Positions 1 through 29,294 of a stretch of DNA of 37,090 nt are shown here, one piece after another (position 1 is the first letter of the stretch; every line of letters starts with the position of its first letter). The notes below the pieces were generated by a model. It was not told where the DNA came from and did no database searches. It worked only from the letters and a program-made list of their open reading frames with translations. The stretch covers positions 1 to 37,090 of the forward strand of contig JAAFIQ010000028.1 of NCBI GenBank assembly GCA_013298715.1, written 5' to 3'. This DNA is from Bacteroidota bacterium (GTDB lineage: Bacteria > Bacteroidota > Bacteroidia > B-17B0 > Aurantibacillaceae). Position numbers and translations under genes: made by a program.

Positions 1-19
1 AAATTTGATATAATTAAAA
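1..19. repeat. Terminal direct repeat, left copy (circle closure)
   Basis: The 19 bases here (aaatttgatataattaaaa) recur exactly at 37072-37090. A 19-base identity at the two extreme ends is best explained by a circular molecule of about 37,071 bp that was linearised with a short overlap. A short direct terminal repeat on a linear genome is the alternative. Confidence 0.85.
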
Positions 20-43
20 GATTGTAGGGTTGATTATAAGGTA

Positions 44-60: not shown

Positions 61-105
61 ATTGAATAAACCTAGGGTTTGCAGGGTTTGCAGAGTTTAT
101 TCAAT
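61..105. repeat. 11-bp inverted repeat enclosing a tandem GGGTTTGCA pair
   Basis: ATTGAATAAAC (61-71) and GTTTATTCAAT (95-105) are perfect inverted copies separated by 23 nt. The spacer holds two tandem copies of GGGTTTGCA (75-83, 84-92). Eleven-base arms are the size of Xer-type half-sites, and the site lies about 390 bp upstream of a tyrosine recombinase gene. A recombination site or replication control element is plausible; the function is inference. Confidence 0.6.
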
Positions 106-356: not shown

Positions 357-495
357 AAAATTTTTATAATTTTGTGCTTTTTTTTGCTAAAAACCTAATG
401 TTTTTTATTTTTTTAACAAATTTTAAATTTATATAAGCCACTACACTAATTTTTTTGTCAATTTACTAAATATTTACTACATTTATTTGAATATA

Positions 496-1617
496 ATGCT
501 TGGTAAACCTTTAATACAGCAATTTAAAGTCTATTTATTTACTGTTAAGTATTTAAAGGCGTCAACAGCCAAAAATTATTGTTACGAAGCTCAACAATTT
601 TTAAACTGGTTTACCAAAAATAATCAAATTGATTTTGAAAAAATAGATTTGACAAAATATATTGAGCATAAAATAAATTTGAAAAGCCTAACTAATGCTA
701 GTATTAACAACGTTGTTAAGCAAATTACACTTTTTTACGAATTTTTAAAGGAAGAAAAATACATTAAACAAAATACGTTGCTGAATTATGATAAGACTGG
801 AGCTGAACAACGTGTTTATTTTACTTTAAGTATTGATGAAATAAATATGTTATGCAAAACATTTGATAACAGTGAACTTGGGCTAAGAAATAACGCACTG
901 TTAGAGATTTTATTTAGCAGTGGATTAAGAATTAATGAGGCTTTGAGTATTACAACACATAATTATTTGAATAATTACAACGTTGTACTTAATAAAATGA
1001 ACACCGAACGTTTTTTTATAATTAATAATGAGGCCAGAGAAAAAATTAATAAGTACCTAAGTACAAAAAAAATTAGTACAACGTATTTGTTTAGTTCTGT
1101 TACAGGTAAACAAATTGGTAGAAGTGATGTAAACGATGTAATTAAAAAGAGCTGCGAATTAGCAGGTATTAGTAAGAAAGTTACTAGCCATACATTTAGG
1201 CGAAGTTTTGCTACAATTTTACAAGAAGGTGGCGCAAACATTATAGAAATAAAAGATTTGCTTGGCCACCAAAATATTTTTAGTACTGAAATTTACATTG
1301 GTAAAGATTATAACTATTTACGTGAACAAATTAAGTTATTGCCACGCTATACCAATAATGAAAAAAATTATAACAAAATTAGTTTGGAAAATGTACTTGA
1401 ATTTTTAGTTGGTAGAAAATCATGCTGTGTAAGTGTGCTGCAAAAGAGAATGAAAATTACCTATGCACTAGCAAAAAAATTATATTCTATTTTTATAGAA
1501 GATAATATAATAACTAATTTTAATGTGCGGCATCAGCAAATTTTAGTACAGAACAAACTTGCGCTACAACAGCTTTTAACAAACAATTTGCAGTTTAAAC
1601 AATTAGGTATAAAATAA
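496..1617 (+). CDS. Tyrosine recombinase with C-terminal FtsK-gamma-like winged-helix domain
   Basis: Site-specific DNA recombinase. Residue numbers count from the upstream TTG at 487; I prefer the ATG at 496 as start. An N-terminal SAM-like core-binding domain spans about 8-100. The catalytic domain holds the complete set: Arg148 (SSGLRINEAL), a possible beta-hairpin Lys170, His235 and Arg238 (SHTFRRSFAT), His261 (DLLGHQ) and Tyr270 (EIYIG). After the normal end at about 290 there is an extra domain, 298-356. Its pattern (VLEFLV..., SVLQKRMKITYALAKKLYS, then NII) matches the FtsK gamma domain, known as AV.FV...ASIS.VQR..RIGYNRAAR. In cells FtsK gamma activates XerD at dif; carrying the domain in cis would suggest an FtsK-independent recombinase (inference). 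It is one of only three plus-strand protein genes and faces a shared terminator at 1623-1639. Likely job: integration or dimer resolution. Confidence 0.85.
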   Translation: MLGKPLIQQFKVYLFTVKYLKASTAKNYCYEAQQFLNWFTKNNQIDFEKIDLTKYIEHKINLKSLTNASINNVVKQITLFYEFLKEEKYIKQNTLLNYDKTGAEQRVYFTLSIDEINMLCKTFDNSELGLRNNALLEILFSSGLRINEALSITTHNYLNNYNVVLNKMNTERFFIINNEAREKINKYLSTKKISTTYLFSSVTGKQIGRSDVNDVIKKSCELAGISKKVTSHTFRRSFATILQEGGANIIEIKDLLGHQNIFSTEIYIGKDYNYLREQIKLLPRYTNNEKNYNKISLENVLEFLVGRKSCCVSVLQKRMKITYALAKKLYSIFIEDNIITNFNVRHQQILVQNKLALQQLLTNNLQFKQLGIK

Positions 1618-4010: not shown

Positions 4011-4568
4011 CTACGCTGCAAATCTTATATAGCCATTATCTAGCATTTTATTTGTATGTAATTGTTTTACTTGTGCAATAGTACGACCAAAAGCCATTTC
4101 AAAGTGTGGTTTATCAACAAGGTTTTTAAATTCACCGCCCCAAGCAAAACCAATTTGCTTGGCTATTTTTACAATTGCGGCCCAGTTTGTGTTCCAAATT
4201 ACCTTACCATCTCTAATTTCTGCTAAATCTACTGCTAGGCCATAATTATGAAAACTATCACCGGGTTTGGCCATTGTAACTATTTTACCCGGTGCACTTC
4301 GCCCTTGCGCATATAGTTTAGATTGATCTTCCCAGGTTCTTAACCCTTGAACAACTCTTAATTTAATTCCTAATTCTTTTTCAACGCGCACAATTAGTTC
4401 GCTTACTTTTTCTCTTATTGCTGGGTGTAATTTACTTATGCGCTCTTTGCTTATGCCATCCCAAACAAAGTCTTGGTAATATTCCATAATTTCTTTTCTT
4501 TTAGAGGTTAAAGCGATAATGCTTGCTAAAGCAATGCCACCATAAATTAGATTACTTGTTTTCATCAA
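4011..4568 (-). CDS. Membrane-anchored M15 peptidase (endolysin-like)
   Basis: 185 aa. A hydrophobic segment at about 6-21 anchors the protein. The rest is an M15 D-Ala-D-Ala carboxypeptidase / L-Ala-D-Glu endopeptidase domain: GLRTWEDQSKLYAQGR (75-90), the zinc motif SFHNYGLAVD (His107, Asp114), WGGEF (143-147) and KPHFEM (His155). It would cut peptide stems of peptidoglycan during lysis or entry. The start overlaps the end of the RadA-like gene by 17 bp. It is the last gene of the late operon, just before a terminator. The N-terminal anchor is unusual for a free endolysin and would also fit a virion or membrane-bound enzyme. Confidence 0.9.
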   Translation of the reverse strand: MMKTSNLIYGGIALASIIALTSKRKEIMEYYQDFVWDGISKERISKLHPAIREKVSELIVRVEKELGIKLRVVQGLRTWEDQSKLYAQGRSAPGKIVTMAKPGDSFHNYGLAVDLAEIRDGKVIWNTNWAAIVKIAKQIGFAWGGEFKNLVDKPHFEMAFGRTIAQVKQLHTNKMLDNGYIRFAA

Positions 4569-6168
4569 TTAATTGTTTTTTGCTGATGTTGTATTTTAAA
4601 CCAGTTTTACCATAACGGTTTTTAGTTGTTTTGGCATAATTGTTTTCAAAAGTATCATCTACTTTAAATAGTTCAATATTAATACCAGCATCGTATAATG
4701 GATTTGTGCCACCACGAATAATTTTTGCGCCTGTTCTTTGAAAAATAACAACAAAAATTGTATTTGGAAAATCCTTACGAAGTTTATCAAAATCATCTTT
4801 TTCAGCTTTTAGCTTGCCCCAACTATCTATAAAAATAGCATCAAACAATGGAGCTGCTTTCCGTATCGTTGCAATACCTTCAGGGGCTTGTTCAGCAAAT
4901 TCTATTTTTGGTAAATTTGTTGGGCTTATATATTGATTAATAAAGGCATTGTTTGGAACTGTGTTGCGTGCCATTTCAAGAGTAAACACACCATTTTTTA
5001 AACCAGCATCTGCAAAAGCATTTACAATTTGGTATTGTAATTGACTTTTACCAGCGCCTTGATCACCCTCTAGTGTAATAGCTAATTCATTTTGTTCAAG
5101 TTCGCCTAAAAACTTACCAATATCGCCTTGCAACTTAATAGTTTTACCTTTTGGTTCTTGGCTAATTTGATTTCCTTTAACAAATAAATCTGTTACGCCT
5201 TTTAAGTTTTCTTGTTGCATTTTAGCCAATTTTTCATCGAGTTTGGTATAAGATTTTTTTGCTGCCTCTTTTACAACAGCCTTAGCATTAGTTATATGTG
5301 GTTTAACTTTATTATACCCTTTTTTTACATAATCAGTGGCTCTTTTACCAGCATGTAAGGCTTTGCGTGCGTATTTACTAAAATTAAACCCACTAAGTGC
5401 TACTTCATTAATTGTTAATGTTGAGTTACTTCCATCTAAAAAACGTTTTAATTCACCAGCAATTGCGTAAAGTGTAGTTTCATATTTATCTTTTGGGTTT
5501 ATATTAATAAATCTATCAATATCGTTATACAATTTTTGGGCTTTTTCTTTTGTATTAAACTCACCGTCCATTGCAATATATCGCTTAACTAAGTTTACAC
5601 TCTTTAATGCACCATAGCTATCTGCAATTACTTTTAATTCAGAATAATTACTAAGTTCAATTTCAATAGTAGTAATTTTATCCGTTAACATGGTATTGTA
5701 AACCTTAATTAATTTTTTTTGCATACCATCAATTTGATTGGCATACTGTGTGTTTTTATTAATGCGTTTATCAAAAATTGCTTTTTGTATAGCATCAATT
5801 AAACCCATTATTTTTTTACGGTTATGGCTTTTTTTGTGCAACCCAATGTAGCGTTTAATTAAAGTTACTTGTATTGGCAATACCTCCAATTCATTTGATG
5901 GTTTTGATTTTGGAGCTTTAACCTTTTTTTGTTTTATAACTTTTTTTGTATTTGCTTTTGTTGATTTACTAGGTTTTGTTGCCAAGTATTCATTAAGTTG
6001 CTTAACGTGTAAGTCGATAGCGTTTTTTATTACACTATCCTCATCATACATTTCAAGATGCTTAAAATTTAAAGTGCTGCCAGTTACAAAATTGTGGCCA
6101 TCAATTAAATTTTTTGGCCAGTTGCTTGTATCAAAGTTTTGCTGAAGGTAGTTTTTTGTTGTTATCAT
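4552..6168 (-). CDS. RadA/RecA-like P-loop ATPase with polyvalent-protein N-terminus
   Basis: 538 aa. The C-terminal third is a RecA-superfamily ATPase: Walker A GDQGAGKS (368-375), TLEMAR (396-401), Walker B AIFIDSW (444-450), FQRTG (476-480) and KNRYG (516-520), which resembles the KNRFG motif of RadA. Residues 16-65 form a module shared with the neighbouring 387-aa protein (P..L..GH.F, then N.Y.A..P). Residues 65-90 are a Lys-rich linker and 95-330 are helical. Position between two other polyvalent-type genes suggests a protein delivered to or acting in the host at infection, perhaps on DNA. I considered a genome-packaging ATPase; the RadA-like motifs make that less likely. Confidence 0.75.
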   Translation of the reverse strand: MITTKNYLQQNFDTSNWPKNLIDGHNFVTGSTLNFKHLEMYDEDSVIKNAIDLHVKQLNEYLATKPSKSTKANTKKVIKQKKVKAPKSKPSNELEVLPIQVTLIKRYIGLHKKSHNRKKIMGLIDAIQKAIFDKRINKNTQYANQIDGMQKKLIKVYNTMLTDKITTIEIELSNYSELKVIADSYGALKSVNLVKRYIAMDGEFNTKEKAQKLYNDIDRFININPKDKYETTLYAIAGELKRFLDGSNSTLTINEVALSGFNFSKYARKALHAGKRATDYVKKGYNKVKPHITNAKAVVKEAAKKSYTKLDEKLAKMQQENLKGVTDLFVKGNQISQEPKGKTIKLQGDIGKFLGELEQNELAITLEGDQGAGKSQLQYQIVNAFADAGLKNGVFTLEMARNTVPNNAFINQYISPTNLPKIEFAEQAPEGIATIRKAAPLFDAIFIDSWGKLKAEKDDFDKLRKDFPNTIFVVIFQRTGAKIIRGGTNPLYDAGINIELFKVDDTFENNYAKTTKNRYGKTGLKYNISKKQLIDENK

Positions 6169-7351: not shown

Positions 7352-7425
7352 TATATTTGTAAAGCAAAAGGCTAGTTTATCACTAGGAGCAATTGCAGCT
7401 CCCAAGTTCTCTAAACTAGCCTTTT
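7352..7425. terminator. Nested hairpin, terminator or processing site, with a plus-strand promoter-like box
   Basis: AAAAGGCTAGTTTA (7366-7379) pairs perfectly over 14 bp with TAAACTAGCCTTTT (7412-7425). Inside, GGAGC (7386-7390) pairs with GCTCC (7398-7402), loop AATTGCA. The stem overlaps the stop codon of the ParB/DdrB-like gene (7411-7413). The plus strand has a TATATTTG box at 7352-7359, seven bases before the stem, and T-rich sequence after it, so a short plus-strand RNA is also possible. A matching -33 TTG at the right distance is absent. Confidence 0.65.
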
Positions 7426-9552
7426 CATTTTTTCTTTATTTAAGTAAAAAATATTTAAATTTATCTCTGCAATTTTAATTAAGTCTTTAAATTGTTTATT
7501 TGTACGAGTATGAATGCTAGAAATATTATTAATATTAATACGTTCAAATGATGTATTTAAGCGGATAGAAACTAAAGTATTATCTTTTTTAAAATCTTTA
7601 ATTTCGGTTATAACTACTATTGAATTTGTTGCTGTTTCACTTTTAAAAATTGCGATTGGGTTTTGCAAAAATTTTGGTAAATCAATCAAGTCTTCAACTT
7701 TTAATTGATGTGCAATATCCTTTTTATTTAATTGTAAACCAAGAGCTTTTCTTACCACACTTTCTTTAAGTATTATTGGTAGTTTTGGAATGTTTGCATC
7801 CTTTAAAATTGAATTTGGGCCTGCTACCAAAAAATAATCATTTTGCTTTGTTAGTCTAAAATTATTATTCTTAAACTCTATTAACTTTTTGTTAAATGCA
7901 CTTACAATATCTGTAAATCCACTTAGCGTATTTTGTTCTTTTAAACTTAAAGCTAATGCCCTAACTTTAGCAATTGCAATAGCTTTACTTTTACTATTAG
8001 TTTCAATTATTGTAATACCAAATACTTTTTTTACTGCATCTGTTTTTGGAAATGCTGGGCGTTCCTCCTCAAACATATCTCCCGGTCTAGTGGTTGCATA
8101 AAAGGCATAATTTTTAAATGTTTCAGTAATTTGTTTTTGGGTAGGGCTATCTGCAAAAATTTCAATTAATTTAATTTCTAACGCATTATATTTTTCGTTT
8201 ATTGCAGTACCAAAAATATCTACTTGGTTTTGCCAATTAATAATAGAGCCATTTGGTTTAAATATTAGGTAATCTCGCAAACCTAAAATGGCTTTGCTAA
8301 TTTCTAAATTTATGCTTTGTTCACCGCGGCACTTTAAAATGTATAAAGCGCTTTTTTCAATGCTTTTTTGCAAAGCAATAGGTAGTTGTAAAAAAACATC
8401 AGATGTATTAACATCGCCATCTTTAAAAATTAAGTTTAGTAATAATTTTGTAATAAAATTTACACCTGTTTCGTTAATTACATTATTACGTGTGTAAATT
8501 TCTAAATCATCGCCTCTAATAATATTTTCTTTAATTAATAATTTTAAAATATCGCTATTTCGTATTAATTCACTTAAACTTAAATCTCCTGTATCATTTT
8601 GAAGTAAGTTGTTTAGAATCGTATCTAAAACAGTATCGCTAATTAAGCCAACTTTACTTTTAATTTGAGTTGTTTCATTTGCAACCGCTTCTAAATCTTT
8701 TTGAGTGTATTGCCCCAATGCAATGGCTTCATTGTCGTTAATGTTTACCATACGCACTATTACTGGCTTATTTATGTTTTTTAAAGCTCCTTTAAAATTA
8801 TAACACGCCAAGTTTTCATTTAACCAGTTAATGTATTTTTTTGGATCATTTGGAAAATTTGCATAATAATATTTTATTGTATAAGCCCTTCCGTTGCCTT
8901 GTATTACCTCGCCACGGGTATTAATTATTGGCGCACCAGTAAATGCAGTTGCACCCTCTACCAATTCTGCTGGCCGTAAATTTTCAGCAATTAATTTAGG
9001 TGTATTATGCCCACTTTGCGAAGTTGCTCGATTACGAGGCTGCGCCTCGGGTATAAAGTGCAATGGGTTTTGAATGTTGCCTATATGGCTTGGCTGTAAT
9101 AAATCTGTATCAATAATTACATAATTTCCTTCTACAATTTTGTTTAAGGCAAAACTGATTTGGCACGTTTTGCCTTTAATTAGCGTTTTTATTGGCTGTT
9201 GCCTTTGATAACTAATATTATCTTTTATGTATTGACTGGTTAAGCGCGCATCATCAAAAGGTTTTCCTAAACCAAATAATGCTGTTTGTCCGGGCAATTG
9301 TTCTGCATTTAATAAATCACTTTGCTTTACTACAGCCTTAATTATTAAATCTTCGATAACTGGTTTGTATGCTTTTACATGATTTGTTGTAAAACCATTT
9401 TTGGCAATTAAACCTGGGCTTAAGTTTAATAAATACTTAAAGCCGTACAATTCATTTAAAAATTGGTTGGCCGCATTTAGATTAAACCTATTAATTTTTG
9501 TTTTAATAAGTTCAACAAGCCGTTTAAACGTGTATGTTTTACTGTTTTGCAT
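7411..9552 (-). CDS. Polyvalent-type protein with ParB/DdrB-like nuclease domain
   Basis: 713 aa. Residues 165-300 show the ddrB-ParB-like signature of mobile-element polyvalent proteins: FIPEAQPRNR (167-174), the segment NLRPAELVEG (191-200), NTRGEVIQGNGRAYTIKYY with GNGR at 219-222, then NKPVIVRMVN and QYTQKDLEAVAN. ParB-like folds of this group bind or cut DNA. The remaining about 400 residues are mostly helical and unassigned. A minus-strand terminator (9566-9584) lies just upstream and a nested hairpin covers the stop, so this gene is its own transcription unit or is read through from the holin gene. Likely role: a DNA-acting protein delivered to or made in the host (inference). Confidence 0.75.
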   Translation of the reverse strand: MQNSKTYTFKRLVELIKTKINRFNLNAANQFLNELYGFKYLLNLSPGLIAKNGFTTNHVKAYKPVIEDLIIKAVVKQSDLLNAEQLPGQTALFGLGKPFDDARLTSQYIKDNISYQRQQPIKTLIKGKTCQISFALNKIVEGNYVIIDTDLLQPSHIGNIQNPLHFIPEAQPRNRATSQSGHNTPKLIAENLRPAELVEGATAFTGAPIINTRGEVIQGNGRAYTIKYYYANFPNDPKKYINWLNENLACYNFKGALKNINKPVIVRMVNINDNEAIALGQYTQKDLEAVANETTQIKSKVGLISDTVLDTILNNLLQNDTGDLSLSELIRNSDILKLLIKENIIRGDDLEIYTRNNVINETGVNFITKLLLNLIFKDGDVNTSDVFLQLPIALQKSIEKSALYILKCRGEQSINLEISKAILGLRDYLIFKPNGSIINWQNQVDIFGTAINEKYNALEIKLIEIFADSPTQKQITETFKNYAFYATTRPGDMFEEERPAFPKTDAVKKVFGITIIETNSKSKAIAIAKVRALALSLKEQNTLSGFTDIVSAFNKKLIEFKNNNFRLTKQNDYFLVAGPNSILKDANIPKLPIILKESVVRKALGLQLNKKDIAHQLKVEDLIDLPKFLQNPIAIFKSETATNSIVVITEIKDFKKDNTLVSIRLNTSFERININNISSIHTRTNKQFKDLIKIAEINLNIFYLNKEKMKRLV

Positions 9553-11455: not shown

Positions 11456-12556
11456 TTAATAGTTGGATTTTATATACCTTATAATTTTATCAACATTTAA
11501 GTTTCTCGCAAGCATTGCTGTTCCGCTTCCGTTTCTAATATTTACACAGGCAAACGCAAAATTTATAAGCATTAAACTAGCATAAGTTGTGCTAAAGTTT
11601 AATATTGCGTTAGTAAAAGTGCTAGTGCCGTATTTTATAGTGCTTGTTAAAGTATTCGCACTGCCATTAAATTCTAAATAAGCGCTTACAAACCGTCTAT
11701 TTGTGCTATCATAAAGTGCACTTGTAATAAGTGTTAATGTGTCAACGCCAGCTAGCCTTACTACCAATCTATAAAAATTAGTTTCACCAACTCGAGGAGG
11801 GCGAATAAACACTCCATTTTGAGGGTTGTTATTTGCAGAGGAATCAAAAAAACCAATAGCTTGTAAAGTAGGATCGGTTGCAAAATCAACTTGCCCTCCT
11901 ACAATACTAAATTCGGCACCTTGACCAATTACTGTATTGCTAAAAAATCTAAAGTTGTTTGCCGATTGAATAGCCGATCTGCTGTTAGCAACGTTTGTTA
12001 TTCTTATTGAGCTTTGTCCAAATCTAGGTTTAGCAATAGTATTATTTACATCTGGTTGTGTTTCAGGTATTTCAGTTGACAAGGAACCACCAGATGCAAT
12101 TTGGCTTGAAAATACAATTTTTGAACCTAAATTTGAATTAAAAAAATCTTCAAATTCCCACTCAAAAATTACTGGCGCTAATGGTCCTGCTGGTCCTTGT
12201 GGTCCTTGTATACCTTGTATACCTTGTATACCTTGTATGCCTTGTATGCCTTGCGGCCCAACTAAACCTTGTATGCCTTGTGGCCCAACTAAACCTTGTA
12301 TACCTTGTGGGCCAACTAAACCTTGTATACCTTGAGGACCAACTAAACCTTGTACACCTTGTGGACCAATTATAGAACCTAACAAAACATAAGCGCCTGC
12401 TTGTTTTTGGTAAAAATTTCCGTTTGTAGTATCAATATAATAATCTAAATCATTACCTAAAGTATTTGCAGGTGCGCCTACACCATTATATGTAGTGGTG
12501 CCATCTTTGCCATTCCTTTTTGGCTTAGGATTATATGTTTTTGTACCATCAACCAT
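11456..12556 (-). CDS. Collagen-like fibre or spike protein
   Basis: 366 aa. Residues 64-125 are uninterrupted Gly-X-Y triplets (GPQGIQGLV type, then GIQGIQ), a collagen-like trimer stalk. The N-terminal 60 residues read like a phage fibre attachment part ([23 protein letters not shown]). Residues 130-366 form a beta-rich C-terminal head typical of receptor-binding proteins. It likely forms the host-contact fibre on the particle. The start overlaps the preceding 330-aa gene by 8 bp. The repeat is likely to expand and contract, which changes stalk length. Confidence 0.85.
12182..12367 (-). repeat. Gly-X-Y coding repeat
   Basis: About 186 bp encoding 62 residues of collagen-like triplets, built from a 27-bp unit (GPQGIQGLV) near the 5' end of the gene and a 9-bp unit (GIQ) further on. 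Near-identical tandem units allow slippage. Confidence 0.9.
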
Positions 12557-13967: not shown

Positions 13968-14660
13968 CTACAAAAAAAAACCTAGACTAGCGCTTTTGTT
14001 ATTTTTTGAAATAGTAATTAATTCACTTAAATAATCAATTCTTTGCGATGCCTTTTTGTAGCCGCCAGTTGTATCGGGGTGTGTTTTACCCCAGCCTCTA
14101 TTTGCTTGAAAAAAAGCATTTAAAGCCGTTATGTTATCTTTAAAATCGTTAATGTTGTTTATACCGTATTGTTTTAAAATACCTGCCTTTTTAGCCATTG
14201 CAAATTCACGCAAATAAAATTGAGCTGCGGCCATGGCAGCAATTTTTGGCTGTAATAATAAATCTGGATTAGCAACTAAATCAACACCAATTCTTTTACC
14301 AATATCTGCGTAATTACTTTTAAATGTTAGTTGATTAGCAAAGCCACGACCTCGAAACTTATACCCTTCGTTTGGTGCATTTTTATTTTTACCTCCATAC
14401 ACATAGTTTGCTAGTTTTTCTGGATTGTTTGCCAAAGTAACCGCTATGTGTGTAGGAATTTTAAAAACCTCTGTTATTCGTGAAGCTGTATAGTTTAATT
14501 TTTCGGAAATGGGTTGAAATTCAGTTTCTTTACTTGCCATACTTAAAATTGCACTTAAAGCATGTTTATTGGTAATGCCTTGCTTATAACTTTCTTGTAC
14601 AAGCACTTTAGCATTATTTTTTTGCTCTGGGGTTAGTGAATTTATGTATGCTTTGCTCAT
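13968..14660 (-). CDS. GH19-like lysozyme/chitinase-fold endolysin
   Basis: 230 aa. Motifs of the glycoside hydrolase 19 lysozyme family appear in order: ILSMASKETEF with the likely catalytic Glu45, SEKLNYTASRI with Glu53, YKFRGRGFANQLTFKSNYADIG (100-121) and DLVANPDLLLQPKIAAMAAAQF (127-148). It would cut the glycan strands of peptidoglycan. No signal peptide or membrane anchor is seen, so it depends on the holin or is packed in the particle. It lies about 4 kb upstream of the holin gene in the late region. The plus strand just upstream (14677-14783) carries a candidate small RNA. Confidence 0.85.
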   Translation of the reverse strand: MSKAYINSLTPEQKNNAKVLVQESYKQGITNKHALSAILSMASKETEFQPISEKLNYTASRITEVFKIPTHIAVTLANNPEKLANYVYGGKNKNAPNEGYKFRGRGFANQLTFKSNYADIGKRIGVDLVANPDLLLQPKIAAMAAAQFYLREFAMAKKAGILKQYGINNINDFKDNITALNAFFQANRGWGKTHPDTTGGYKKASQRIDYLSELITISKNNKSASLGFFL

Positions 14661-19577: not shown

Positions 19578-20291
19578 TTAGTAAGGTATACAGCTAATAC
19601 CAATTAGTTTTAATTTACCAAAAAGGTTTGACGCTGCATTTGCCGCTGCATAGCGGAATGTGCCTTTAATGTTAACTTGTGGCTCAATCCATTTTGGATT
19701 ATCAACTTGCACAGCGTTAAATTTACCTTCGTAACCACCAGTACCTGTTACATCAGTAAACATACTAATTGGGCTACGTTCGCCAATCAAATATTTGTTT
19801 CCGTTAGCAATTAAATCATAATCGCCGTTTGCAGATGTTGCACCCGCGCTAAAGAAAAATGCTCCAGTTGGATCTGTTGGCGAAGCTCCAAAACCTTCTT
19901 GGTACTGAATACCAGTAATTAAAAAGAATTCATCTTTTTTCAATTTTGCGTTGTTAACGTTGGTAAACCCCTCTTTTATGGTATCCGCATCTTCAAAAAA
20001 GATTACTTGGGTTTTACCTGTAATTGGTTTTACAGAATATAATTCTGAATCAACAAATTGCATGCGTTTATCCACCAAGGCTTTCATAATTTCGTTTGGC
20101 AAAGCGGTAATACGCTCAAGTGCCAAATCGCGGCGGTTTTTATTACGGCTACCAAATTGCGGACCTTGAATTTTGGCAAAAGCGGCACGGCGCTGTTCTG
20201 GGTTCATTTTTACAATTGAACCCATTAAGGTTTCTTGTTTTTCGGCAGAATTTGTCATGCCTAAACCACTTAATATTTCTGTTGCTTCCAT
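19578..20291 (-). CDS. Candidate major capsid protein
   Basis: 237 aa, not recognised by motif. The N-terminal about 75 residues are helical and basic (MNPEQRRAAFAKIQGPQFGS; NKNRRDLALERITALPNEIM). Residues 80-237 are beta-rich with Gly/Ala turns (GKTQVIFFEDADTIKEGF; DEFFLITGIQYQEGFGASP; GTFRYAAANAASNLFGKL) and end in ISCIPY. Reasons to see it as the capsid protein: central place in the late block, wide gaps on both sides, a 158-bp 3' gap with a strong nested hairpin as often follows highly expressed capsid genes, and Ala/Gly-rich composition. It lacks HK97-fold marks I would recognise; a jelly roll is the working guess. Confidence 0.55.
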   Translation of the reverse strand: MEATEILSGLGMTNSAEKQETLMGSIVKMNPEQRRAAFAKIQGPQFGSRNKNRRDLALERITALPNEIMKALVDKRMQFVDSELYSVKPITGKTQVIFFEDADTIKEGFTNVNNAKLKKDEFFLITGIQYQEGFGASPTDPTGAFFFSAGATSANGDYDLIANGNKYLIGERSPISMFTDVTGTGGYEGKFNAVQVDNPKWIEPQVNIKGTFRYAAANAASNLFGKLKLIGISCIPY

Positions 20292-21005: not shown

Positions 21006-23246
21006 TTAAATTTTTACATAACGCTTGCGCTTTGTGCCTGTTGCACGGCGTTTTGTGTTGCGTTTACGCTTACCAACACCACTTACACCTTTACTTTTTT
21101 TGCCAGTTAATGCGTTTTTTACTGCTTGGCGTGCTTTTGGCGATACAGTCAATACAAGTGCGCCAGTTGTTATAACTGCAATAGCTGTTGTGGTGCCAGG
21201 ATTTTCTTTTGCAAAAGTTTTTACTTTACTAAAAAAACCTTCTTTATTGGTTGGTGTTGTGGCACTATTATCTTTAGCGGCTGGGCTTTGATTTTTAGCA
21301 TTAGTGCCATCGGCGCTTTGCCCACTATCTTCACCCTCTTCAGCAACTTTTTCTGCAACATCGGCAGCATTTTCTGCTACCTTTTCAACATCTGTTGTTG
21401 TTTGTGTATCTTTTTCGGATGCTGAATTGTTGCTTGATTCTGGCGCACTATTATCTGTGCCAGATTCAGGTGTTTCGGATTCAGGTGTTGGTGAATTAGC
21501 GGCTTTTTTAGCATCGCGCTTATCTTTGGCAGCTTTAATTACTTTACCAGCTTTTTTACCTTCTTGTGCAGCGTTTCGTATTTTAGACTTGTTGCGTTTA
21601 AAAAAGTCGATTACGGCTTTAACTATACTTTTACCATTTTTTGTAGTTAAGCCTGCGGCTGTGGCTGCACTAGCGGCGCTTGTAACAGGTACTGCACTAG
21701 CGGCAACTGCTGTTGTTGTTGTGGCTGGCTCAACCCCCAAACTTTCTATAATTTGTCCTAAAACTTCTACATCGCCACTTAAACCACGTTTTTTAGCGCC
21801 AGCTAAAATTGCTTTTTTTAAATTTTCTGGTTTGCCTTGCAAAGTATTTACAAAAATCTTAGTTATTTTATCAAGTGCTTTTATTGCACGCTGCCTTCTA
21901 TCCTCATTAACACCTTTGCTTTTTGCTTCATCGGCAGTAAAATAACCTGGAGCAACCGCCCAAGCTAAATCAAACCAACCTTCTTTCATTACAAGCAAAA
22001 AGCCGCCACGCGCAGCAGCTGTTAATGGATTGTAACGCACCACTTTTTTAAACACTTTGCTATTAACTGCTTTTTTAACACCAGTTTTAGCACGGTTAGT
22101 TGCATTACCAGCGGCTTTGCGCACATTTTGAAAAAACTTTTTAGGTGCTTTGGTTTTACCCAATACATTAACATCATCGGCTAAATCATCAGTGCCATCT
22201 TTATCATCTGTACCTTGGAAATTTTCATCTTCAATGCCATCAAAACTTTCGTTTGCATCAAAATCTTTTGGTGATGCTAAACCCATTTCAACATTCATAT
22301 CATGCTCGGCTTGGGCAACTTCCGTTAAAGCTTTCATGCGGTTTGGTGTATCAAAATTATTAATCGCATGATCTAACATTTTTAAATTGTTAGCAGCGCC
22401 ACCTTGGTAAACTACACTTTGCGGATTGTTTTTAATAAAATTTCGTGTGCGAACCATGTGGCGTTTTAATGCGCCTAATTCATCGTTTGGATCGCTTACA
22501 GCGCCAAAACCAAACGTGTTAAAATCTGAACCGCTAGTTATGCCATTTAATTCAGATTCATTTTTCATGCCACTTAGCACTGCAACTGGTATTCCTAATG
22601 TTGTTTCCATTGTATAATCAAATTTGTCGGTATATGTTTTTTCTATATTAAACTTATCTAACACACAATCTATGATCCAATTGTGGCTAGGTTTATTAGC
22701 TACAGGAACTACAACGTATACATGCTGCCAACCTGCACCATATTTTGTAACACGTAGTTTGTGTTTAATTTCTAGGTTAGTTAAAATGCAACTCACAAAA
22801 ATTGAGTAGCAATCGCAATCAATACCAGCTAAATGTTTTGTTGCTGGGTTGCGCCCTAATATTTGTCCATCATGCCAAGAGCGCGCTGGGGTTCTTAATT
22901 CTTCAACACCTTCTTTATCTAACTTGTAAGGAATGTGCTTGTATAAAAAATTCCAAATTGCCTCCAATGTATCGGCCACTTGTTCTTTTTTTAATTCTCT
23001 TGCAATTTGCTTAGTTTGCCAATTGTAATCAGCAACTACTTTTTCCATTTGCTCAACAGTGTATTTTACGCTACCATCGGGATTAATTATTTTGTCTTTA
23101 AAATTTGCTTTTGGAAAAAAACTATCATACTGGCTTCCATCAATAACATTTCGTGCGCTTGTAGCAACTAAACCTAATGTTTCTTTTACATTAGTTTCGT
23201 GGCAACAAAGCTTACCATTAACGCCATTATGTTTGCAATTACACAT
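21006..23246 (-). CDS. Transglutaminase-like protein with membrane segment and basic tail
   Basis: 746 aa. Residues about 90-205 form a transglutaminase-like cysteine protease core: Cys144 in GIDCDCYSIF, His175 in WQHVYVVVP and Asp193 in WIIDCVLDKFN. The N-terminus is Cys/His-rich (C2, C4, H6, C14, C15, H16), possibly metal-binding. Residues about 380-480 are basic and helical; about 570-670 are low-complexity Lys/Ala then Glu/Ser/Thr-rich. A membrane segment lies at about 684-701, followed by a 45-residue tail packed with Lys/Arg (GKRKRNTKRRATGTKRKRY). A virion protein that spans a membrane with its basic end toward DNA fits. The catalytic part might process virion proteins or cut the host wall. 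The stop is TAA at 21013-21015 or close by as read; the gene abuts the 172-aa gene. Confidence 0.75.
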   Translation of the reverse strand: MCNCKHNGVNGKLCCHETNVKETLGLVATSARNVIDGSQYDSFFPKANFKDKIINPDGSVKYTVEQMEKVVADYNWQTKQIARELKKEQVADTLEAIWNFLYKHIPYKLDKEGVEELRTPARSWHDGQILGRNPATKHLAGIDCDCYSIFVSCILTNLEIKHKLRVTKYGAGWQHVYVVVPVANKPSHNWIIDCVLDKFNIEKTYTDKFDYTMETTLGIPVAVLSGMKNESELNGITSGSDFNTFGFGAVSDPNDELGALKRHMVRTRNFIKNNPQSVVYQGGAANNLKMLDHAINNFDTPNRMKALTEVAQAEHDMNVEMGLASPKDFDANESFDGIEDENFQGTDDKDGTDDLADDVNVLGKTKAPKKFFQNVRKAAGNATNRAKTGVKKAVNSKVFKKVVRYNPLTAAARGGFLLVMKEGWFDLAWAVAPGYFTADEAKSKGVNEDRRQRAIKALDKITKIFVNTLQGKPENLKKAILAGAKKRGLSGDVEVLGQIIESLGVEPATTTTAVAASAVPVTSAASAATAAGLTTKNGKSIVKAVIDFFKRNKSKIRNAAQEGKKAGKVIKAAKDKRDAKKAANSPTPESETPESGTDNSAPESSNNSASEKDTQTTTDVEKVAENAADVAEKVAEEGEDSGQSADGTNAKNQSPAAKDNSATTPTNKEGFFSKVKTFAKENPGTTTAIAVITTGALVLTVSPKARQAVKNALTGKKSKGVSGVGKRKRNTKRRATGTKRKRYVKI

Positions 23247-27894: not shown

Positions 27895-28128
27895 TTAATT
27901 TATTCCATTAAAATTATTTTTGTATATTTTTTGAAAGTGTTGTTTAAGATAATTTTTAGCTTCATTAATACTTTCATTGGTTTTAAATAATTAACCATCT
28001 GGATTATAATATTTATAATTTTCAACTAACCAATAGCGCCAAGCCATATACACTTTTATATTTTTAAAATTGTGTATATGAGGGTAAATTGAATTTTCTT
28101 TTACTCCATACGGATAAGTAGTTTTCAT
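27895..28128 (-). pseudogene. Small gene split by one in-frame stop
   Basis: Starting at an ATG that overlaps the methyltransferase stop as ATGA (28125-28128), the frame runs 45 codons (KTTYPYGVKENSIYPHIHN ... YKYYNPDG), meets TAA at 27991-27993, then continues in the same frame for 31 codons (LFKTNESINEAKNYLKQHFQ ...) to a second TAA at 27895-27897. Both halves read like one helical protein and codon use does not change at the stop. A recent nonsense mutation is simplest; stop read-through is an alternative. The first half may still be made as a 45-aa protein. Confidence 0.6.
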
Positions 28129-29294
28129 TTTAAAATATTTAATTTACTGGCAATAGCAGCTACAACGTTTGTTGTTACTGCATTGCCGATTAATTTATAG
28201 CGTTGTGTTTTTGCAATTGTTTTAATAATTCCGTTGTAGTTGCCGTATTTTGTAAAGTCATCTGCGAAACCTTGTAAACGTTCGCATTCAATTTCGGTTA
28301 AGCGCCTAATTGTTTGGTTAATTTTCACACCATCTAAATCTTGACTTGTAACTGTAAAACTAGGTTCACCTTCATTTTTAAATTGCCTACCGTTTTGTCT
28401 TTTTTCTTTTCTATTTGGTATTAAAACTGCTTTAACTTCCGGCACTAAAATATTGACTTTGCCTTCGGTGCGATGTGCGCTTAGGGTAGCCATTAAACCT
28501 GTTGTATCATACACTCTGTTTTGTTGCATGGGTTGGTTGCCAAATTCTTGAGCTGGATTAATTTGTTTTATTAATGTCATATCGCTATGTAAACCCCCAC
28601 TTTTACCACCTGCTGTTAATTTATGAGCATTTTTAGGTACAATAAATGTATCTGTTGATCTATTACCTTGTTTAGTACTTATTGTTGAACTATGTTGGGT
28701 TTGTGATTGTCCGTTGTTTGTGTTTTCCGCTTCAGTAAATAATCTACCATTTTTTGTGATAGGAAATACTCCTGGCTCACTTGCTCCTGTAAGATGTCCG
28801 ACAAGGTAAATCCGCTCTCTGTTTTGGGGTAAAAACCAGCTTGTATTAAGCAATTGCCATTCAAGTCTATAACCCCCAATGTTGGCAAAGGCAGCGAGAA
28901 TTGCCCAAAAATCTGCTCCACCATTTGAGGAGAAAGCTCCTTTAACATTTTCCCAAATAAACACACTTGGTTTGTAGTAATTAATAATGGTAATTGCTTC
29001 CATGATAAGGCTGCTACGTTGGCCGTTAAGTCCTTGTTTTTTTCCTGCCAAACTAAAATCTTGGCAAGGGCTTCCGAAAGTGATAATGTGGGGGCGCTTA
29101 ATTGCAGCTCCGATAACAGATTGTACTGGTCCGATGTATGTTGCATTTTTAAAATTATATTGATAATTTGCAATAGCGTGTTTATCAACCTCGCTAAAGT
29201 AATGTTGATTAAACGTATAGCCAGAATTAATAAAGCCTTGTGTAGAGCCACCAATTCCGCTAAATAATTCGAGTATGTTAAGGTTTTGGTTCAA
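28125..29294 (-). CDS. DNA cytosine-5 methyltransferase (orphan)
   Basis: 389 aa with the complete m5C methyltransferase motif set: I FSGIGG (11-16), IV GSPCQDFS with catalytic Cys77, VI ENVKG (115-119), VIII QNRERIYLVG (157-166), then a variable target-recognition region at about 190-320, IX RRLTEIECERLQGF and X KLIGNAVTTNVVAAIA near the end. It methylates cytosine in a short site that cannot be told from the sequence. No restriction endonuclease lies beside it, so it probably protects the element from host restriction. A second reading frame overlaps residues 50-205, and the ATGA at its end couples it to the next small frame. It begins 1 bp after the 124-aa gene. Confidence 0.95.
   Translation of the reverse strand: MNQNLNILELFSGIGGSTQGFINSGYTFNQHYFSEVDKHAIANYQYNFKNATYIGPVQSVIGAAIKRPHIITFGSPCQDFSLAGKKQGLNGQRSSLIMEAITIINYYKPSVFIWENVKGAFSSNGGADFWAILAAFANIGGYRLEWQLLNTSWFLPQNRERIYLVGHLTGASEPGVFPITKNGRLFTEAENTNNGQSQTQHSSTISTKQGNRSTDTFIVPKNAHKLTAGGKSGGLHSDMTLIKQINPAQEFGNQPMQQNRVYDTTGLMATLSAHRTEGKVNILVPEVKAVLIPNRKEKRQNGRQFKNEGEPSFTVTSQDLDGVKINQTIRRLTEIECERLQGFADDFTKYGNYNGIIKTIAKTQRYKLIGNAVTTNVVAAIASKLNILK
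28679..29146 (-). CDS. Overprinted phage protein inside the methyltransferase gene
   Basis: 155 aa from the ATG at 29146 (the open frame extends up to 29254). It lies in a different frame, same strand, fully within the methyltransferase gene. It is not a random shadow: it carries the recognisable pattern of a phage protein family often found with cytosine methylases, KMLKELSPQMVEQIFGQF, GVIDLNGNCLIQAGFYPKTE, then FTLSDILQEQVSQEYFLSQK and YLLKRK (family pattern LSxILExxVPxKYFLSxKAxxxILRR). Function of the family is unknown to me. Overprinting of two meaningful proteins constrains both; start choice is uncertain. Confidence 0.55.
   Translation of the reverse strand: MQHTSDQYNLLSELQLSAPTLSLSEALAKILVWQEKNKDLTANVAALSWKQLPLLITTNQVCLFGKMLKELSPQMVEQIFGQFSLPLPTLGVIDLNGNCLIQAGFYPKTESGFTLSDILQEQVSQEYFLSQKMVDYLLKRKTQTTDNHKPNIVQQ

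Follow-up and report, generated by a model that had tools for sequence, protein, structure and literature searches.

The window, by which we mean the whole stretch of DNA that was analysed, is contig C21 (37,090 bp) of a 46-contig genome, and it begins and ends with the same 19 bp, with an integrase gene close to the left copy (Table 1). The integrase frame is open from TTG 487 (ATG 496) to a stop codon ending at 1617 and encodes 376 residues counted from the TTG, or 373 from the ATG. The protein consists of a recombinase body with an XerD-like end (...KLLPRY), a linker of about a dozen residues and a C-terminal tail. In total 106 residues follow the catalytic tyrosine, where 75 recombinases, parsed out of 80 viral loci, have 10–47; an extension that is common in unrelated integrases, which the preliminary description had named as speaking against its reading, is not what this comparison shows.

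Table 1. Integrase, attachment sites and flanking repeats, in window coordinates.
Feature	Position	Strand	Basis or remark
Tyrosine recombinase, XerD-like, with gamma-like C-terminal domain	487..1617	+	ORF, Pfam, NCBIfam, alignment
Stretch matching PF09397 FtsK_gamma (profile positions 7–56 of 63)	1384..1530	+	E 4.3e-5 within own genome
att repeat, left copy (attL); XerC-type arm 3–13, centre 14–19	1..19	+	End repeat, junction comparison
Element's own arm GATTGTAGGGT, where dif has TTATGTTAAAT	20..30	+	Putative recombinase arm, role inferred
att repeat, right copy (attR); completed to a full dif by TTATGTTAAAT, which follows in contig C3	37072..37090	+	Junction
Two overlapping copies of AGGGTTTGCAG (74–84 and 83–93); possible accessory sites	74..93	+	
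Inverted repeat TTGAATAAAC (62–71) / GTTTATTCAA (95–104) enclosing the AGGGTTTGCAG copies	62..104	.	

The recombinase body matches PF00589 with E 2.1e-31 (109.4 bits against a cut-off of 27.1), which places it among the tyrosine recombinases. When it is aligned with 39 viral recombinases, R148, K170, H235, R238, H261 and Y270 never vary, so the complete R-K-H-R-H-Y set described earlier stands. The best NCBIfam match is the XerD model TIGR02225, and since its score of 163.3 bits lies below the curated cut-off of 329.6, we call the protein XerD-like and not an XerD orthologue. Within its own genome the body shares 32% identity with the XerD-like protein (contig C34) and 23% with the XerC-like protein (C42). 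An AlphaFold2 model of the full-length integrase, for which 39 of the 80 viral recombinases served as alignment (40 were picked and one with a stop codon was dropped), shows a confident Xer-type body from residue 11 to 270 (block means 81–98) and leaves the tail unresolved.

The element sits in the chromosomal dif site of its host. The 19-mer found at both ends of the window occurs elsewhere in the genome, with up to one mismatch, only in contigs C3 and C32. C32 ends with the first 126 bp of the window and C3 starts with its last 126 bp, and these overlaps give the chromosome order C32, element, C3. The junction in C3 reads ATTTGATATAA-TTAAAA-TTATGTTAAAT and is the only zero-mismatch match of the family dif pattern in the host genome; its right arm, TTATGTTAAAT, is identical to the XerD arm of E. 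coli dif. The pattern TATAA-N6-TTATGTTAAAT is found without mismatch in 37 of 87 family genomes, once in each except G078 (twice), and with similar spacers. Allowing one mismatch makes the pattern unselective (75 of the 87 genomes match, and a reversed control about as often), so the argument for dif rests on the zero-mismatch sites and their context; the 28-mer at up to three mismatches is found in 2 of 40 genus genomes. In the complete, one-contig sister genome G003, dif lies at 3,143,698, between samples at 2.99 and 3.22 Mb where GC skew goes from positive to negative in a noisy series of 20 samples of 20 kb. Such a change of sign is expected at the replication terminus. The surroundings of dif in 19 of the 36 other zero-mismatch genomes (20 stretches, some of them one-sided) hold no tyrosine recombinase frame, and the association of dif with a recombinase therefore belongs to the element. 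A comparison of 32 dif loci for empty-site synteny matched a flanking gene in no sister genome. Among the 5- to 8-mers with a skew over 400 kb of G003, no clear candidate for KOPS appeared, and AGGGTT is unskewed (71 versus 69 occurrences). Two other family genomes carry dif sites that may mark further dif-integrated elements: G078, where one of the two perfect sites (C13:1168 and C32:78 of that assembly) is 78 bp from a contig start, and G032, where dif at C65:28824 is about 70 bp from a contig end.

The att site keeps the XerC arm and the 6-bp centre of dif, while its XerD arm differs. The same arrangement, an XerC arm and centre like dif with a divergent XerD arm, is described for the att sites of TLCphi and the gonococcal island (PMC5357621). 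The substrate for a recombination assay, given previously as positions 1–270, can be narrowed to the att core at 1–30 together with the other contig end. C21 stands apart as a contig whose breaks fall exactly at the repeats and which overlaps both flanks by 126 bp. This suggests that the sequenced DNA also contains the element with its two ends joined, in a circle or a head-to-tail array. C32 extends 107 bp into the element and does not branch to C3; the contigs thus show no empty dif. Like an IMEX, the element is integrated at host dif through a dif-like att site; an IMEX uses host Xer instead of an integrase of its own, and here an intact XerD-like integrase lies 0.5 kb from att. We therefore consider that the element works like an IMEX, though it is not a classical one.

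What is the tail of the integrase? Compared with 24,736 Pfam families, its 95 residues match FtsK_gamma (PF09397) first, at E 1.3e-5 and with a score (25.3 bits) below the gathering cut-off of 30.6; ribosomal S25 comes second at E 0.047, more than three orders of magnitude behind in E-value. The best PHROG is an FtsK/SpoIIIE-like family (0.013), and hhalign against seven gamma domains gives a probability of 88.9 (E 2.4e-6, 65 columns, 18% identity), with the register S-x-x-Q-[RK]-x-x-[RK]-[IL]-x-[YF] kept. A narrow gamma HMM that we built from FtsK domains scores the tail at 10.8 bits (E 0.096 in 5,200 frames), phmmer against the PDB returns no gamma chain and S25 at E 0.21, and a scan of NCBIfam has no match for the tail. 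Modelled with 20 gamma domains as its alignment, the tail folds into a winged helix (core block pLDDT 83–87), and since the gamma rows shaped this model we regard it as compatible with gamma rather than as proof. With the model so biased, Foldseek gives gamma entries probabilities of 0.97–0.99, the highest among the best 50 matches listed, with no match reaching E 0.001, and in VIA-align the P. aeruginosa gamma domain (Z 7.2, rmsd 2.3, 60 residues) is tied with a Hop1 domain (7.9); both programs also return many DNA-binding winged helices. The natural recombinase–gamma fusion claimed at the outset thus gains support from sequence (the Pfam ranking and hhalign), and the proposed check by profile search, Foldseek and AlphaFold came out in its favour for hhalign, while on the structural side it yielded a compatible model only. 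A C-terminus with no structural likeness to a gamma winged helix, the other outcome that had been envisaged, is not what the model suggests. Taken together, we think it very probable that the tail descends from FtsK gamma.

The residues through which gamma meets XerD are partly changed. In the accessible text of Keller et al. 2016 (PMC5052618) the XerD-facing residues of E. coli gamma are Q1288, R1289, R1292, I1293, G1294 and N1296, with R1289 pairing with E184 of XerD. In our alignment the tail has Q, K, K, I, T and A at these six positions, so that Q1288 and I1293 are kept, R1289 and R1292 become lysine, G1294 becomes threonine and N1296 alanine; the host's own FtsK has Q, R, K, L, G and N. 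Alanine in place of N1296 is also seen in gamma domains of other viral proteins, so this change need not disable the domain. On the recombinase side, the integrase has glutamate at the place of E184 and N, E and K at those of E183, Y187 and W188, while host XerD has serine at both E183 and E184. We considered E184 as a distinguishing mark of the integrase and dropped it, as position 184 varies in 23 XerD-like proteins (from 25 loci).

No second example of the fusion came to light in the genome, phage and plasmid sets that we searched. Single-sequence scans found no relative of it in viral contigs and, in genome contigs, one 32% match of the recombinase domain in a Mycoplasmatota protein of 320 residues without the tail. 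Across the phylum, the full-length integrase finds matches at E ≤1e-30 in 26 of 395 genomes (about four candidates were scored per genome), and the 25 others are XerD-like proteins that stop where the body stops, their matches reaching no further than query residue 302. The full-length query gives 96 matches in phage records, none covering 80% of it, and matches 2,242 plasmid records, two of which reach 80% coverage with recombinases that stop before the tail. Four plasmid matches run past residue 310, among the 20 listed of the 2,242, and in these records the annotated recombinase stops short of the end of the match, hence without a tail. The tail by itself matches 1 of 87 order genomes, its own; three phage records at E about 6 were taken as chance.

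Searches with gamma lead to the same picture. PF09397 has a match in 375 of 395 class genomes, with two in 13 of them, and the second matches, some in frames that were read partly, proved to be FtsK-like copies, short proteins, other fusions or at chance level. In the order, 79 of 87 genomes have a match and six of these have two; a weak match in G050 (E 0.009) was rejected, its frame reading as a membrane acyltransferase, and E near 0.01 can therefore be taken as the level of chance, where matches in other genomes also fall (E 0.005–0.01, 18 bits). At E 0.01 the host's gamma has matches in 374 of 50,697 phage records, a count that takes in FtsK-like translocases, so that gamma outside FtsK is common in phages; the 60 of these matches that were listed include Vibrio phage proteins annotated as FtsK gamma domain proteins and matches under genes annotated as recombination-associated exonuclease or RdgC. 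Of 78 loci taken from the gamma searches, 76 show a gamma frame, which in no case is a tyrosine recombinase; at two of the loci (L230, L231) a separate recombinase-like frame stands beside the gamma frame. Our own gamma HMM misses the tail of the window itself at threshold, so its silence elsewhere says little about divergent fusions. In several loci (L089 in G376, L093 in G288, L094 in G451, L095 in G077, L096 in G257, L228/L232, L233 and L234) gamma lies in short or unrelated fused proteins, with partners such as an HNH-like end, putative membrane segments or a large primase/helicase-like protein, and there it reads as a detached module on mobile DNA. In the open-licence PMC literature, as far as its accessible text extends, searches for recombinase–gamma fusions and for prophages that carry FtsK gamma or lie at dif return only engineered fusions, reviews and unrelated work, in line with the initial statement that no natural system of this kind has been described. 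Elements exploiting dif are known, and what appears new, within that literature, is a domain fusion of which we find only engineered examples described.

FtsK gamma acts as the switch by which the resolution of chromosome dimers is coupled to cell division. Judging from the sequence, we lean slightly towards the view that the integrase brings its own gamma domain and activates Xer-type recombination at dif without FtsK. The fuller proposal, a natural, self-activating XerD-gamma that evolved independently and integrates at dif together with host XerC, free of FtsK and the cell cycle, seems to us evenly balanced between right and wrong. In this proposal the phage-like element, integrated at chromosomal dif, would use its XerD-family protein with the gamma-derived domain in the role of XerD on the divergent attP arm, and perhaps on dif too, while host XerC would occupy the conserved XerC arm beside it. 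The tethered gamma would take over the activating part that the FtsK motor normally plays, and an XerD-type first strand exchange could then proceed without FtsK or cell division. After crossover in the 6-bp centre one end would carry a complete dif, with which the host could still resolve dimers, and the opposite end a hybrid site. What the sequences show is the architecture of the fusion, its place in dif and the structure of the arms; the partnership with XerC, the activation by gamma and the independence from FtsK are what we infer, and the preliminary interpretation is supported in part. The position in dif, which the preliminary description could not know, fits the idea of an Xer activator far better than that account could foresee, and makes the fusion reading better supported than it was there. 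The activator role is also favoured by gamma being the top Pfam family, by hhalign (88.9), by a body closer to the XerD-like than to the XerC-like protein, by the terminus-like skew, by att arms built like those of TLCphi and the gonococcal island and by the contact positions (Q1288 and I1293 kept, lysine for R1289 and R1292, glutamate at E184 of the XerD side); counting against it are the sub-cut-off gamma match, the weak narrow HMM, the changes G1294 to T, N1296 to A and at E183/Y187/W188, and the failure of the searches to bring up a second fusion in which conservation might be seen. According to the accessible text of PMC5052618, engineered XerC-gamma and XerD-gamma recombine dif without the FtsK C-terminus, either recombinase may carry gamma, and nine gamma residues suffice.

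The main rival, which we judge rather unlikely but worth weighing, is that the winged helix, gamma-derived or other, has an accessory part in DNA binding: it would hold on to sites next to att, for example AGGGTTTGCAG, and build or orient the synapse, with no activation of Xer catalysis. DNA binding is the usual function of winged helices, and the KOPS sequence is G-rich. Two copies of AGGGTTTGCAG inside an inverted repeat, 55 bp from the att core, could be such sites; many DNA-binding winged helices are among the Foldseek and VIA-align matches, gamma occurs in many phage proteins whose annotation does not point to Xer, and gamma itself binds KOPS (accessible text of PMC5052618). This alternative, however, leaves unexplained why dif is the target and why the best family is gamma, and the two roles do not exclude each other. 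It is improbable, in our opinion, that the tail is not gamma at all, being some generic winged helix or matching by chance, on an ordinary dif-targeting integrase: the tail does not reach the Pfam cut-off, structure comparison places S25 and other winged helices close to it and the model is gamma-biased, but gamma leads all the Pfam families by the margin given above, while chance matches reach E 0.005–0.01 and 18 bits. Least probable, if only by a little, is action in trans, whether the tail activates host XerD (with host XerC) at dif, the fused recombinase not being the activated one, or holds the element in place by vying with FtsK for host XerD. Engineered gamma on XerC still activates XerD, so the domain need not sit on the protein on which it acts (PMC5052618, accessible text), and the gonococcal island remains integrated because its site is stripped by FtsK (PMC5357621, likewise), but host XerD has serine at both E183 and E184, even if position 184 varies among Bacteroidota-type XerDs.

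A self-activating XerD-gamma would have close parallels in known systems. The engineered XerD-FtsKgamma and XerC-FtsKgamma (PDB 5DCF; PMC5052618, accessible text) share the order of recombinase, short linker and C-terminal gamma and act at dif; their linker has 16 residues, as against about a dozen in the integrase, and they are man-made from E. coli parts, whereas the integrase is natural, lies on a mobile element and combines a divergent gamma with a diverged XerD. The Vibrio cholerae IMEX TLCphi shows the same pattern of att arms and evades FtsK with an XerD activator encoded by the element; as described in the available part of the source, it differs in needing host XerC and XerD and in that this activator, XafT, is a separate protein (PMC9765430). 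The gonococcal genomic island (GGI) with difGGI is likewise a large dif-integrated element with the same arm pattern, but reportedly uses host XerCD with FtsK, whereas the element here encodes its own XerD-like recombinase (PMC5357621, accessible text). Gamma domains outside FtsK in phages (Vibrio phage, RdgC-associated) resemble the tail as detached modules on mobile elements and differ in their setting, with 0 of 76 in a tyrosine recombinase. We know of no gamma domain in XerT of TnPZ from Helicobacter. As far as the accessible text of PMC5357621 goes, XerT is comparable as an element-associated Xer-family recombinase that affects difH recombination. If our reading is correct, elements would have a second, different route beside XafT for escaping the control of FtsK, and two strategies, the engineered-type fusion and the XafT-type element-borne activator, would be combined in one chain. 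It would also provide a natural one-chain protein for studying how gamma activates Xer in a group, taken as Bacteroidota from gene content and best matches, whose XerD does not keep the residues that make the contact in E. coli.

The rest of the element is phage-like with few database relatives. Three of its large proteins, at 19578–20291, 4552–6168 and 21006–23246, have no match in 50,697 phage records, and the P-loop protein at 4552–6168 has relatives in 39 of 395 class genomes, often over one half only. No tail gene was seen among the element proteins scanned. Genes for an endolysin-like protein (13968–14660), a DNA methyltransferase (28125–29294) and an M15 peptidase (4011–4568) are present, together with a 713-residue protein with ddrB-ParB and MuF_C domains (7411–9552, minus strand) and a probable fibre protein with collagen-like GPQGIQG repeats (11456–12556, minus strand). 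Adjoining the integrase on the minus strand, 1663–2979 encodes a 438-residue protein whose C-terminus reads as a T9SS type A sorting domain, possibly a cargo gene. The 401-residue PDB chain 9i5v_14 bears the name RaiA but aligns with XerC/XerD recombinases along some 290 residues; it is perhaps mislabelled.
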